From positions 1 through 38,606 of the IMG/VR virus record IMGVR_UViG_3300028837_001247: a DNA stretch of 38,606 nt. One strand, given 5' to 3'. Under the pieces are notes generated by a model, which was given only the letters and a program-made list of their open reading frames with translations, was not told the DNA's origin and ran no database searches. This document shows, one piece after another, positions 4,801-34,137 of this stretch (the first letter of the stretch is position 1; each line of letters begins with the position of its first letter). Both the position numbers and the translations under genes were made by a program. The DNA comes from a virus.

Positions 4801-7624
4801 TTTCACCACTAAAAATCTTGTTATCTTTTGCATCAAAAATATCATATTCAAACGTTCCCCCAGTGATTCTTTGGGTTTGCGCAAGTCTTTCCCATTGTGC
4901 CTTAGTAATATTCTGCGTTTCAATGAAAGAAACATTTAAGTACTCACCGTTATTGGTAGCTGAAAATCTGATAGCATTGCTTTCTGTCTCAAAACGAATC
5001 ATAGCTTTGCCACCAGACATAGCTTCTTTTATCGGCCCGAATATCTCCTCAATCTCAAGTTCTCTATGATCTACTGCGCGTTGTCCTTTTAAATAGTCTG
5101 GCTGTCCAACTAATGGTTTTTTATTTTTATATCCACTTGCATAATGCCTGCCACTAAAATCCAGCATTGAGCCATCGCTGAGTATGTAGCCAGCTTCTAA
5201 AGGATCATGGGTTGTACCATACACTTTTTTGGCTCGCCGTTGAATTTCGTCAACCCGATGTATCGTTCCCCCCGCCATAGGCTGTTCACCAGGCTTCAGC
5301 ATCTGGCCCCTGAGCTTCGACAGCTCCCCCTCGTACACCGTGACCTGCTTGCCGTCCTGAAGACGGATCTTGCCCTCGCCCATATCGTAGGCGGTGTACT
5401 CCTCGTCTTTGGGCAAAGTGACAGCCTTGCCCTGAGTGTTTGTAACCTTAGTAGACTCACTTATGCGGAAAGTTTGGCGAGAGGCTTTGGCTTGGTCAAT
5501 AACCCCAGCCTTGGGCTTTTTGGGCTCGGTGGAGGTGAGGGCGAGGGGCTCTTTCTTCAGTCCTATGGCTTCAACAAAATCTGCCTTTTTCCAATTCATT
5601 GTTCGCTGGAAATTGCCAGGACCCATAGTAATATCAGCAAACAGCGAATCCAGTTCTTCTATATCCATCATTTCAAGGTCGGATTTGAATAATTTGGATA
5701 ATTTCTTTTGCGCTGTTTCTTGTGCCTTTCCTTTTATTTGTCGTGCTTTTGTTACAAGCTCTCCAAGTTCTTCCTTCCCTTTGGCTGCAAAGGGACCTTG
5801 TATGGCAGCAGCCGGGGGCGTGAAGGTGGGTTTTGTAGGCTTTATCTTCTCATATCTTTCACGGACTTTCTCAAGCCCTGCCTGAACTTCTCCCTTTTCA
5901 AGAGACCTTACCGTGAATGTGCTTTTGGTCTTAGGGTCGGTAAACAGGTGTCCCGTCTTACCCCCCACAATTTCCTGGGGACCATTGTAGATAAGATTCA
6001 AGTCTTTGGCTATGGATTCGGGGAATACTTCAGTAGGTTTTTCAATCAGGATTTCTTCAAGGAACTTTAATTTAGGCGTTAAAGCAGGCGGGGCTGGCTC
6101 TATTAACCCTTCTGGCCTCTTCAATTCTTGCAATAACAGTCGATCCTCAGCAGTCCCCAGAAAGTCAGGCTTAGCTTCTGCGGTACGTATTTCTTCCTCA
6201 CGCTTTTCAAGGCTAACAGGTCTCCCGGCAGGCGTAACAAGTTCTGGTGCCATAGACGGAGCCTCTTCGCCTATCACAATACCCGGACCCGCTGCTTGTC
6301 CTGGTCCTCTCATTCGCACTAAAGCCGCTGTGCGACGACCTAGATCTTCACGCCATTTTTCTATATCAATCTCTGCTCCCTCTTTTACCTCCACCTCGGG
6401 AAAAGCCTTTACGATAACCGCTTGCCGTTCCTCGGCTGTTAGTCGACGTGGGGCTCCCTCTTCAGCTTCGACACGGGCTTCTTCCTGTGCCCATAGCTTC
6501 TTGATCTCTGCTTGACGTTTTTGGGCTACGGTCTCGGGGGGCTTCGCCGTGGCTTGCTTTTCGGCAATAACCTGATCAAGCTCTGTGGCAAACTGAGCGC
6601 TCTGGGGAGATTGACGGATGGCAATCAGGTCTTCAAGGGAAGCTTGGCGGAGGTTGTCGAGGGCGGCTTGGTCGGCTACGGGGGATCTCGGGGTCTCAGC
6701 ACGAGGCTTTGGGGCAAGTCGCATGGCCGCTCCAGGAGCACCAATAAGGCCAGTGACAAGAGCCATTGATAAACCACCATACCCAGCCCCTACAGCTTCA
6801 TTAAAACTCACCCTGGCTTTAGGGTCGTACAGCAACCTTTTCGATGCCTGCCCGCCAAGGTAAGCGGCTACTTCTTGTCCGGTCTCAAGAGCCAGGCCCT
6901 TACCATAAAGCCCCATACCTTTGAGCAGCCTTTTTGTAAAAGTCGTTGCAGCCTTATCGCCAACACCAGATTTTTTCAGATATTTCCAAAGCTTTCCTAC
7001 AGCACTAAAAACAGGCAGTTCGGTTAAGACTTCCACCTCTGCCGAGGTAATGCCATGCAAAACTTGCTGAACCTCGCTTGCCCCCTCGGCCTTTGCTTCT
7101 TCTGCTGCTGGACCGTAGGCAATCGTGGCTAACATTGTGGCCGCTCCCCCGGGGCCTCCCATAATACCGCCGCCCGCCATTGCTGCAACCTGTGGCAAAG
7201 CCTGCACTCCAGTTCCTACAATGCGCTTTGGGTGATAAGCAGGGAGTTCTCCGAGTCTCTCCGATATATCGGCCTTGGCTCGTAGCTTTTCCTGATTAGC
7301 CTTATAACCCTCGATAGCTTTTAAAACAGGATCTTCCTGCTCTATATCCTCAAATCCTAATGCCTTACCTAACCAAACGCCTGGCTTGCGATGCAGTTTC
7401 CAAACATCTTCCGCCGTTCGAGCAAGGCCAACATTGACAGATCGCAAACCTGCAATTGCAGGACGCTTTACCGTTTTCCACCAAGACGGGGCTTTTGGTT
7501 GCGCTTGTCCAAAATGGGCATTGATTTCGTCATCTGAAAAGCCAGCCTGTCTTAACTCAGGACCATAATGATCCCTTATTTCTGTATCTGAAAAGCCAGC
7601 CTGTCTTAATTGGTCAATATTCAC
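1850..7624 (-). CDS. Giant internal virion protein with LPD38-like C-terminal domain
   Basis: 1924 residues, the largest gene here. The N-terminus has two 18-residue repeats (LRQAGFSDTEI / LRQAGFSDDEI). Small-residue hydrophobic stretches lie near residues 140-175 and 278-305, and a Pro/Glu-rich charged linker runs to about 780. A compact segment at about 800-940 contains AGYILSDGSMLDFSG and a DHRE motif. Long helical regions follow, and the C-terminal third (about 1440-1780) resembles large polyvalent protein associated domain 38, with a membrane-like stretch AILAGLSLAWWAGV. Such giant proteins are known as podovirus internal core or ejection proteins that enter the host with the DNA. No lysozyme or protease motif was seen. 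The GTG start overlaps the TAG of the upstream gene (TAGTG). The LPD38 match is from memory of the family, not a search. Confidence 0.8.
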   Translation of the reverse strand: MNIDQLRQAGFSDTEIRDHYGPELRQAGFSDDEINAHFGQAQPKAPSWWKTVKRPAIAGLRSVNVGLARTAEDVWKLHRKPGVWLGKALGFEDIEQEDPVLKAIEGYKANQEKLRAKADISERLGELPAYHPKRIVGTGVQALPQVAAMAGGGIMGGPGGAATMLATIAYGPAAEEAKAEGASEVQQVLHGITSAEVEVLTELPVFSAVGKLWKYLKKSGVGDKAATTFTKRLLKGMGLYGKGLALETGQEVAAYLGGQASKRLLYDPKARVSFNEAVGAGYGGLSMALVTGLIGAPGAAMRLAPKPRAETPRSPVADQAALDNLRQASLEDLIAIRQSPQSAQFATELDQVIAEKQATAKPPETVAQKRQAEIKKLWAQEEARVEAEEGAPRRLTAEERQAVIVKAFPEVEVKEGAEIDIEKWREDLGRRTAALVRMRGPGQAAGPGIVIGEEAPSMAPELVTPAGRPVSLEKREEEIRTAEAKPDFLGTAEDRLLLQELKRPEGLIEPAPPALTPKLKFLEEILIEKPTEVFPESIAKDLNLIYNGPQEIVGGKTGHLFTDPKTKSTFTVRSLEKGEVQAGLEKVRERYEKIKPTKPTFTPPAAAIQGPFAAKGKEELGELVTKARQIKGKAQETAQKKLSKLFKSDLEMMDIEELDSLFADITMGPGNFQRTMNWKKADFVEAIGLKKEPLALTSTEPKKPKAGVIDQAKASRQTFRISESTKVTNTQGKAVTLPKDEEYTAYDMGEGKIRLQDGKQVTVYEGELSKLRGQMLKPGEQPMAGGTIHRVDEIQRRAKKVYGTTHDPLEAGYILSDGSMLDFSGRHYASGYKNKKPLVGQPDYLKGQRAVDHRELEIEEIFGPIKEAMSGGKAMIRFETESNAIRFSATNNGEYLNVSFIETQNITKAQWERLAQTQRITGGTFEYDIFDAKDNKIFSGETKRIAHLKRDVKEFQILDQAKTRIKDALKDQRGSFSMKQKEGPAIYKDLLTVGTHILRQGHTKFSQFSKQLKATMGDTWAKVKNAVIGLFRDATKILKSERGAVTITGRGPEIPYGTKPLSPSAQKLLDELEALKTDRPAPVHKMETPTGKVGTIYNSVAANWRTRTVDRLYPLMQKLDRGLDITDPDAQAYIQGRMDASAPTVMATFFQHGKLKWLQNAPFVGTKDKGFLPLVEKHGTNRKAVDSYDAEIQGLLKNKIGYKPKNIRDIDRYLFWKVASRAEKLTKEGREHLFTKADIGLLKKIADKDWTGTALDKQYVDFNKNILDFAQEIGIIDPAMRNVWEHDEYIPFYRILEDELLGEEFLRAPFKTRKFIDSQIRKLTGGEQKLGDPFENILRNWSHLITESIRNRSRTTSYKYMQKLGYAEPSKPPKYIGKPEKEAILSYMVKGKRKYFKVKDLELFNALSGVNIQKFDGILMKMFGRSKRWLTYGATFGPAFRVANMMRDTLQTAMVNKSFLPVWDSLKGAYKAYTEHPDYVAMMSGGGGFSLGYVRGDDPRAMGRHIRKVVRKAYKKGNTLSPLNLLEWWEKVGSASENAARVQLYANLRKKGETHLVAGFKARDILDFSLSGDSQVVQTMIRTMPFLGARMQGLYKMGRAYGENKSAFLLKGAILAGLSLAWWAGVKDDERYKELEDWEKWTYRHFWIGDTHFRLPRAFEVDAIFSSSVETIADVLSGNEEGKHIMNFIGQTMRDTFALDVPQLVKPLYEQAKNEIGFTGRPIISESMKRVKPGEQAQPWTSESLRVLGEKLHVSPMRAEALVRGYLATLGMFILGGTDIITQWAFDFPVPPKGRVDDYPLVGRFVRAAPARHTKYITRFYEMAKEMDTLVGTINHYKRTGDREKAVELVSANRSTLRYKRGVNKIRKNISLFNGSIKQIHYRTDLTAKEKKEKINKLIDRKNEMVKKAYHIMTRPTAKQRKED
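7532..7609 (-). repeat. 54-bp period repeat at the N-terminus of the giant protein
   Basis: A 24-base stretch (7532-7555) recurs without mismatch at 7586-7609. The offset is 54 bases, or 18 codons, and encodes the repeated LRQAGFSD motif. Confidence 0.85.
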
Positions 7625-32356: not shown

Positions 32357-32416
32357 TTTTCCGATCCTTTCTCTATTTTTGCCCGCTCAATCTTGCACCT
32401 GGGGCATTAGCGGGTT

Positions 32417-32454
32417 CATCACAATTCAGGCAAGGAGACTGTCTGCTTTAGCTG
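32417..32454. repeat. Direct repeat, copy 1 (left of the Cro-like gene)
   Basis: 38 bases matching 32761-32798 at 33 positions, including ATTCAGGCAAGGAGAC and TGCTTTAGCTG. The minus strand reads ...PSAKADSLLA followed by a stop, resembling the end PTAKALGLLA of the 50-residue gene. This suggests a truncated copy of that gene's 3' end. Confidence 0.6.
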
Positions 32455-32726: not shown

Positions 32727-32760
32727 AATAAAGAAGCTTGTTGTAATATTTCGATCTTAT

Positions 32761-32798
32761 CATCAAAATTCAGGCAAGGAGACCCAATGCTTTAGCTG
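32761..32798. repeat. Direct repeat, copy 2 (right of the Cro-like gene)
   Basis: Partner of 32417-32454 at an offset of 344 bases. It overlaps the 3' end of the 50-residue gene. Confidence 0.6.
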
Positions 32799-32976: not shown

Positions 32977-33000
32977 GTTTGTCGAATTTCCTTGACAAAC
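32977..33000. promoter_or_regulatory. Operator-like inverted repeat 2
   Basis: GTTTGTC (32977-32983) and GACAAAC (32994-33000), a perfect 7-bp repeat with a 10-base spacer. It overlaps the -35 box of the rightward promoter and shares the TGTC/GACA core with repeat 1. Confidence 0.55.
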
Positions 33001-33020
33001 GACTTTGCCTGTGCAATAAG
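32992..33020 (+). promoter_or_regulatory. Rightward sigma70-like promoter
   Basis: TTGACA (32992-32997), a 17-base spacer, then AATAAG (33015-33020, four of six consensus bases). Transcription would begin near 33027, ahead of the structured leader. Confidence 0.55.
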
Positions 33021-33042
33021 GCCAAACATGCAATCAATTTTT

Positions 33043-33269
33043 GGAGGGATGGCGGAAAGCAGGCAAGCACAAAGAGTATCACGAAGCTGTTGAAAGAGAC
33101 AGAGCTTGTCATGACGGGAGACGTAGCGCCTTAATGAAGTGGTCTCGGCAGAAATAATAGAACTTGGTCCGTGGCGATTCGCCCGCAAGAGCTATGGCGC
33201 TTAACCACCTCGGATGTTCCGAGTAAAAAACGAAGAAAGCCGTTGTAGGTTCAAATCCTACTCCCTCCA
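33043..33269 (+). ncRNA. Structured non-coding leader enclosed by tRNA-like acceptor and T-arm
   Basis: At the 3' end is a textbook tRNA T-arm and acceptor: GTAGG-TTCAAAT-CCTAC (33245-33261), TCCCTCC (33262-33268) and a discriminator A. The matching 5' acceptor strand GGAGGGA occurs at 33043-33049, followed by a D-arm-like TGGCGGAAAGCAGGCAAGC. The 195 bases between hold hairpins (33084-33107, 33118-33146, 33209-33223) but no recognisable anticodon arm. No coding frame of note occurs. It could be a degenerate or interrupted tRNA, a tRNA-like regulatory RNA, or a tRNA-derived attachment core at its 3' end. The interval 32923-33291 otherwise holds only promoters and operators. Confidence 0.5.
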
Positions 33270-33291
33270 ACAGATTTTGGGGGTCCGTGAA

Positions 33292-33558
33292 ATGAAAGCA
33301 GTTATACAAATTGCGGTTGTCATTGAAAGGCAGGGTGACCAGAGCGGTAACGGTATCGCTCGAAGCCAGGCCAAATTTCATATCGACACCGATGTTTTTT
33401 TCGCAGAAAATCAAGTGGCGCACTTGGTAAAATGCGTTATTCCCTTAATAACCTCAGCGGCAATGGATTTCGATGAAGAAAATGCACCTGCTGCTAAAAA
33501 TCCCAATAATCGCGGTAGCGATAGTTTGCACGGTCCTGCTCAAGCCGACAAGCCTTGA
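33292..33558 (+). CDS. Small hypothetical protein
   Basis: 88 residues from MKAVIQIAVVIERQGDQSGN. A beta-strand start is followed by a helix (NQVAHLVKCVIPLITSAAMD) and an acidic, Asn/Pro-rich tail. It is the first gene of the rightward operon. Its ribosome site is poor (GGGGG nine bases upstream). The last 86 bases are shared with the next gene in another frame. Not recognised. Confidence 0.45.
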   Translation: MKAVIQIAVVIERQGDQSGNGIARSQAKFHIDTDVFFAENQVAHLVKCVIPLITSAAMDFDEENAPAAKNPNNRGSDSLHGPAQADKP

Positions 33559-33679: not shown

Positions 33680-34026
33680 GAGAGCAATTCGAACTTGAGA
33701 AAAAAGGATCGGAGTTGGATGATATGAAAAAATTGCGTGTAAAGTGCATAAAGTGCGGAAAAGAGTGGGAAAAAGAGTCCTTGGTTTCCTGGGGCCCCGA
33801 CGAATTTACATCATCACTGTGCGATCCCTGCTTTAGAGAGGTCATCTCTCCAATCATTCACAGGAAACAGTTGAGGGAAGGCAACTTTGACTGTTTTGGC
33901 AAAGCCACGGATTATTGCGATCAATTTCAATGCAAGTATAGAGAATGGTGCCTCCGTTGGGAGGAGGCAGGAGAAGAGGCAAAGCAGATCGCCGTGGCAT
34001 ATCCCTCCCCAGGCGCTGTGGCCTGA
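33670..34026 (+). CDS. Zinc-ribbon protein with second Cys cluster
   Basis: 118 residues. VKCIKCGKEWEKESLV and LCDPCF form a CxxC...CxxC ribbon at about 25-55. A second set, DCFGKATDYCDQFQCKYREW then C (about 74-94), looks like another metal site. GGAGGAACC precedes the ATG, which overlaps the end of the upstream gene. A start at MKKLRVKC (33724) is possible but has a weaker site. A small regulatory or DNA-binding role is plausible. Confidence 0.65.
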   Translation: MGIGEQFELEKKGSELDDMKKLRVKCIKCGKEWEKESLVSWGPDEFTSSLCDPCFREVISPIIHRKQLREGNFDCFGKATDYCDQFQCKYREWCLRWEEAGEEAKQIAVAYPSPGAVA

Positions 34027-34137
34027 GGGTACCAGGGCGTTTGGGGGAACGGCTGTTCAGACTCCTTTTTCAGGCCGCAACGGCGAAGGCCAAATCGTCA
34101 TCAGGCTGGAGCATACCCCGGATTTTTCGGTGAAAAG

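Follow-up and report, generated by a model that had tools for sequence, protein, structure and literature searches.

A tRNA-like element heading a rightward early phage transcript: processing element or gutted tRNA gene?

A viral contig of 38,606 bases from IMG/VR, referred to below as the window, has at the head of its rightward transcript the two ends of a tRNA with unrelated sequence between them. The question that this locus raises is whether the ends serve to process an early leader RNA or are the relics of a tRNA gene. The leftward block of the contig encodes a DnaB-type helicase, a DnaD-like loader, a Holliday junction resolvase, the terminase and the head genes. It is headed by a Cro/YdaS-like protein (Table 1), besides which no protein repressor was recognised. 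No integrase was found among the contig ORFs scanned. The rightward block extends from approximately 33027 and consists of the tRNA-like element, an 88-aa ORF, a 118-aa protein, an SbcC-like ATPase and an exonuclease. The host of the phage is very likely a member of the Desulfobacterales, because relatives of the 118-aa protein in genomes of this group are 85–92% identical and the DNA at 33714–33998 and 33990–34131 is 96–100% identical to two Desulfobacterales contigs.

An operator-like inverted repeat overlaps the rightward promoter at its -35 box and, on the minus strand, a promoter-like site directed leftward (32998–32971) that was found by promoter scan. The rightward promoter is absent from the output of that scan, since the scan demands a final T in the -10 box. 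The tRNA-like element begins about 16 nt past the expected start of this promoter, in agreement with the original prediction, which had placed it about 16 bases after the start of the transcript. The palindrome and the divergent promoter-like sites would be as expected for a repressor-controlled divergent early region. A 39-nt direct repeat (87%) is also present on both sides of the Cro/YdaS-like gene, at 32416–32454 and 32760–32798. On the leftward transcript this repeat reads as a small hairpin around AGCUAAAGCA whose stems differ, with a constant UCUCCUUGCCUGAAUU behind it, and it is possibly a paired antitermination-type or operator site.

Table 1. Positions of the features of the early region of the window and of the interrupted tRNA genes of phage LR756500.1
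Record	Feature	Position	Strand	Basis or remark
Window	Cro/YdaS-like protein, 65 aa	32529–32726	minus	heads leftward block
Window	Perfect inverted repeat TTTGTC-N10-GACAAA, operator-like	32978–32999		sole zero-mismatch match in window
Window	Rightward promoter TTGACA-17 nt-AATAAG, 10/12	32992–33020	+	read by eye; expected start ~33027
Window	TT with AA, lengthening the acceptor helix to 9 bp	33041–33042 with 33269–33270	+	pairing probability
Window	Acceptor 5' strand GGAGGGA	33043–33049	+	motif scan and pairing probability
Window	U8, G9 and D-loop-like stretch (A14, R15, then G18 G19 one base late)	33050–33063	+	
Window	Unrelated interior	33064–33208	+	
Window	Hairpin CUCGGA-UGU-UCCGAG	33209–33223	+	p 0.95; not a valid anticodon arm
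Window	Small hairpin AACG/CGUU	33229–33244	+	p 0.87; where a long variable arm would be located
Window	T arm GTAGG-TTCAAAT-CCTAC	33245–33261	+	5/5 pairs, all loop invariants
Window	Acceptor 3' strand TCCCTCC, then discriminator A73	33262–33268, then 33269	+	
Window	First possible gene past the element, 88 aa, no family	33292–33558	+	Shine-Dalgarno-like GGGGG upstream
LR756500.1 (L158)	T arms of interrupted tRNAs	21603, 22002, 43732	minus	
LR756500.1 (L158)	Probable interrupted tRNA	23005	minus	
LR756500.1 (L160)	T arm of interrupted tRNA	15573	minus	

The pairing of the T arm and acceptor end with an upstream GGAGGGA strand, on which the original prediction was built, was confirmed at the positions in Table 1, with U8 behind the 5' strand. 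As in a tRNA, the acceptor stem and the T arm with its invariant bases are present; the acceptor (7/7) and the T stem (5/5) are Watson-Crick throughout, and U8, A14, R15, GG, A21 and Y48 are all found. Independent motif scanning returned this bracket as the only match in the window, and Markov simulation of 400 windows matched in composition produced no such acceptor/T-arm pair. GGAGGGAT, the acceptor strand plus U8, is found in 1.65% of random 350-nt stretches of the window and the D-loop signature stands behind about 1% of Ts, which gives the 5' half (acceptor partner plus D-loop signature) a combined chance of about 1.6e-4, given the T arm. The predicted pairing probability of the acceptor stem is 0.98, and the closing stem is worth 11 kcal/mol. 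In the leader context the 9-bp stem UUGGAGGGA/UCCCUCCAA has a pairing probability of 0.92; that of the closing stem decreases to 0.66 with 130 nt more of downstream sequence. Of the D-arm-like follow-up that had been described for the 5' half, the elbow bases (A14, R15, GG and A) are present; the D stem is weak (two pairs and one mismatch) and closes a loop with one extra base. CCA is not encoded, and CCAACA is found where CCGCCA is expected. Judged on these sequence features, the bracket is tRNA-derived or tRNA-shaped and not a product of chance. Sequence and pairing probability are also consistent with a coaxial acceptor/T arm with cleavable 5' and 3' flanks, as in a substrate of RNase P and RNase Z.

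The decoding middle of the tRNA is replaced by about 150–190 bases of unrelated sequence. An anticodon arm (5 bp, 7-nt loop, U33) is absent from the element, and the best candidate, the hairpin at 33209–33223, has neither U33 nor a 7-nt loop. A hidden anticodon arm was rejected after deletion of every interior segment, which yielded 398 ARAGORN tRNA calls against 7–600 with shuffled interiors. ARAGORN reported no tRNA and no tmRNA on the element itself, and the Rfam model RF00005 scored 14.3 bits, through the T arm only, against a cut-off of 29. A relaxed search, as suggested with the original prediction, brought out no family: Rfam at gathering and relaxed thresholds gave nothing over cut-off for the element and the sequence downstream. 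RNA folding of the whole element gave z values of -1.65 to -1.73. With the tRNA ends fixed and the middle shuffled the value was +0.26, and for the middle alone it was +0.73; therefore the several hairpins that had been put forward as a feature of the interior are what random sequence of the same composition yields. A candidate pseudoknot (33125–33130/33196–33201 crossing 33139–33143/33204–33208) has an energy not above chance and amounts to complementarity only. The interior had also been described as free of reading frames. This is inexact in that an ORF at 33214–33558 crosses the T arm, for which 33292 is the better start, and correct in that the short ORFs match no family. A decayed protein gene in the interior was rejected, as stop-masked three-frame translations gave no Pfam or PHROG family match. 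On the minus strand, an ORF at 33109–33423 contains GVGFEPTT, the peptide that typically results when the antisense strand of a tRNA T arm is spuriously translated, and could be mis-annotated as a gene.

Relatives of the element were sought in several collections. Searches of phage and plasmid records by blastn returned no homologue of the element and only T-arm pieces, mostly of real tRNAs. Three exact patterns run against IMG/VR matched real tRNAs, tandem tRNA-Ser genes and huge-phage tRNAs but not a second instance of the element. DNA searches of 146 genomes and of 389 genomes of the host class, and a gapped pattern run against the 389, gave T-arm pieces at most. In the collections scanned, the helicase, the ATPase, the terminase and the 33670 protein led to no phage related closely enough to be expected to have the element; the nearest one by helicase (64% identity) has only the helicase gene in common with the phage. 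No description of such an element was found in the literature.

The closest likeness of the ends is to the host tRNA-Ser(UGA). The first 11 nt of the element are identical (11/11) to the tRNA-Ser(UGA) of the likely hosts, the Desulfobacterales, and the last 24 nt, covering T arm and acceptor, agree at 22 positions with that of the nearest hosts and at 23 with that of other Desulfobacterales. The changes from the host tRNA preserve pairing or class, with G51 to A51 converting a G-U pair into A-U and G57 to A57 retaining a purine. Downstream of the element, the DNA at 33714–33998 and 33990–34131 consists of two stretches of host chromosome that lie approximately 610–830 nt apart in the Desulfobacterales contigs and are fused here at the microhomology GCCGTGGC. 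Pfam PF23166, matched on the host reading frame, marks the second piece as part of an alpha-glucan water dikinase gene. This junction indicates that illegitimate recombination has been active near the element and that the region collects debris, and it is therefore likelier that the tRNA ends are debris too. Closer to the element, the rightward transcript at 33315–33401 has a structure stronger than that of the element (z -3.25; 2 of 500 shuffles), followed by TTTTTTT and located inside the ORF at 33292–33558. It may be a terminator or attenuator, in which case the leader would be about 375 nt long.

The reading narrowly preferred here, with a rough probability of 0.40, is that of a tRNA-like element that would direct processing of the early leader by RNase P and a 3' nuclease. 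According to this proposal, a tRNA-like RNA would head the operator-controlled rightward early transcript of a Desulfobacterales phage, and its acceptor/T-arm stack and D-loop-like elbow would provide the part of a tRNA that these two enzymes, RNase P and the tRNA 3' nuclease, recognise. Cuts at 33043 and after 33269 would free a stem-closed RNA of about 227 nt, and the mRNA downstream would then begin shortly before the ribosome-binding site of 33292; the phage might benefit from the freed RNA or from the reset 5' end of the mRNA. Since the ends are tRNA-like and stand at the head of the rightward transcript, cleavage there by both enzymes is plausible. In favour of this reading, the half of the tRNA needed for processing (acceptor, T arm and elbow sites) is intact and the anticodon half unrecognisable, the changes from the host tRNA-Ser keep pairing or class, the closing stem has a high pairing probability, and the element lies close behind the expected start of an operator-controlled promoter. 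Counted against it are the lack of covariation, since no homologue was found, the interior at the level of shuffled sequence, the broken D stem, the missing CCA, the host scraps nearby and the reduced probability of the closing stem in the longer context. That the early transcript starts with a tRNA-like RNA devoid of an anticodon arm, which host tRNA-processing enzymes would excise as a separate RNA combining a tRNA end and about 190 nt of free interior, is doubtful.

Several of these points fit a gutted phage tRNA gene of the tRNA-Ser type, and this explanation, only slightly less probable than the preferred one, is the main competitor. The ancestral gene would have stood at the head of the early operon and lost its interior by illegitimate recombination, and the ends would be relics with no present role. 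The identity of the 5' 11 nt and near-identity of the 3' 24 nt with the host tRNA-Ser(UGA), the unstructured interior, the damage to D stem and CCA, the lack of relatives and the joined host pieces in the adjoining 33714–34131 all favour such an origin. Against it, a perfect acceptor, T arm and elbow combined with total loss of the anticodon half would be an unusual form of decay, as point decay would hit both halves. The tRNA-Ser-like 3' end might instead be a phage attachment site, in which the 3' end of a host tRNA is carried for integration and the 5' strand is coincidental. Fragments of tRNA 3' ends are common in phages. Such a coincidence at the 5' side has the low chance given above, the ORFs scanned include no integrase, and in the nearest host genomes the only tRNA with such an end, tRNA-Ser UGA, differs at 2 of 24 positions and continues with GCCA in place of the AACA of the phage. 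An attachment site is thus improbable. Chance pairing of unrelated sequence is the least probable explanation of all; GGAGG is a common ribosome-binding motif, but the simulated windows lacked such a pair, and the D-loop signature makes a coincidence about 100 times less likely still.

The original prediction had further named an interrupted tRNA and an immunity-type RNA. A functional tRNA with an unknown intron near the D arm would have a parallel in a 462-kb phage, LR756500.1. IMG/VR contig 3300025030_000039 represents this phage or one almost identical to it. Related inserts of about 60–70 nt split at least four of its tRNA genes, and probably a fifth, close to the D arm, so that the layout exists in phages. 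ARAGORN misses these genes. The inserts have in common TTCA..ATAACTTTTACAATA..GAACTCAAAGTTATTACAG, with GAACTCAAAGTTATTACAG as the shared 3' motif, and are possibly a new small tRNA intron. Beside a T loop, the insert motif was found only in the two records of that phage and in no further IMG/VR contig. The main text of the huge-phage paper does not mention tRNA introns or interruptions (PMC7162821). The rest of each interrupted tRNA is intact, including anticodon and T arms, whereas the element yields no anticodon arm above shuffled controls and lacks the insert motif. The interrupted-tRNA claim thus fails where it can be tested, and this reading is unlikely, if slightly less so than an attachment site. 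In a tRNA-rich viral contig, L015, an ARAGORN intron search added two intron-containing tRNAs (Arg cct and Ser cga) at 6180–6304 and 6440–6573, and further T arms there are likewise without a nearby acceptor partner. An antisense immunity RNA like that of phage P4, governing premature termination of the early leader, would suit the leader position, the Cro/YdaS-like protein as sole repressor candidate and the strong hairpin and run of seven Ts downstream. The P4-type CI RNA has complementary sequences on either side of itself, upstream and downstream, with which it pairs (PMC4825925), but the longest complementarity of the element to the flanking transcript is 8 nt, compared with 8.85 nt in shuffles. 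The immunity-type claim is not borne out by this comparison, and such an RNA is even less probable here than an attachment site.

Should the ends be cut like those of a tRNA, phages would be using the tRNA-trimming enzymes of the host to tailor their early transcripts or to produce a stable RNA, and the excised element would be a bacterial counterpart of the tRNA-like ends on long noncoding RNAs. If the element is a relic, it shows how tRNA genes lose their interior in the early regions of phages and cautions against taking orphan tRNA ends as evidence of an RNA gene.

Among known RNAs, the bacterial class II tRNA-Ser(UGA) of the Desulfobacterales shares with the element the acceptor GGAGGGA/TCCCTCC, the first 11 nt and a near-identical T arm. 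The element differs from it in having A73 instead of G73, a weak D stem, no encoded CCA and no anticodon arm, and in its length of 227 nt versus about 85. The tRNAs of LR756500.1 resemble the element in that their ends are split by an insert near the D arm, and one of them has an identical acceptor and a nearly identical T arm. They retain, unlike the element, an intact anticodon arm and the shared insert motif, and are a precedent for D-arm interruption and not relatives. The element also recalls tmRNA (RF00023 and relatives) in combining acceptor and T arm with a long interior and no anticodon arm. It has A3-U70 where tmRNA has the alanine identity pair G3-U70, and it has no P2 helix adjoining the T arm. 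A tmRNA was rejected on A3-U70, on the lack, in three-frame translation, of a tag frame with small or hydrophobic residues (usually Ala-Ala) at its end and on the lack of an Rfam or ARAGORN match. Phage P4 CI RNA and the Gifsy-1 IsrK leader RNAs likewise derive from an untranslated early leader, possibly by processing; the element differs from these in its tRNA-like ends, and no complementary targets were found for it. Elements of the mascRNA type share the tRNA-like end structure, which would direct cleavage of a longer RNA by RNase P and RNase Z. These elements retain a small cloverleaf of about 60 nt, whereas the closing stem of the phage element encloses about 210 nt.
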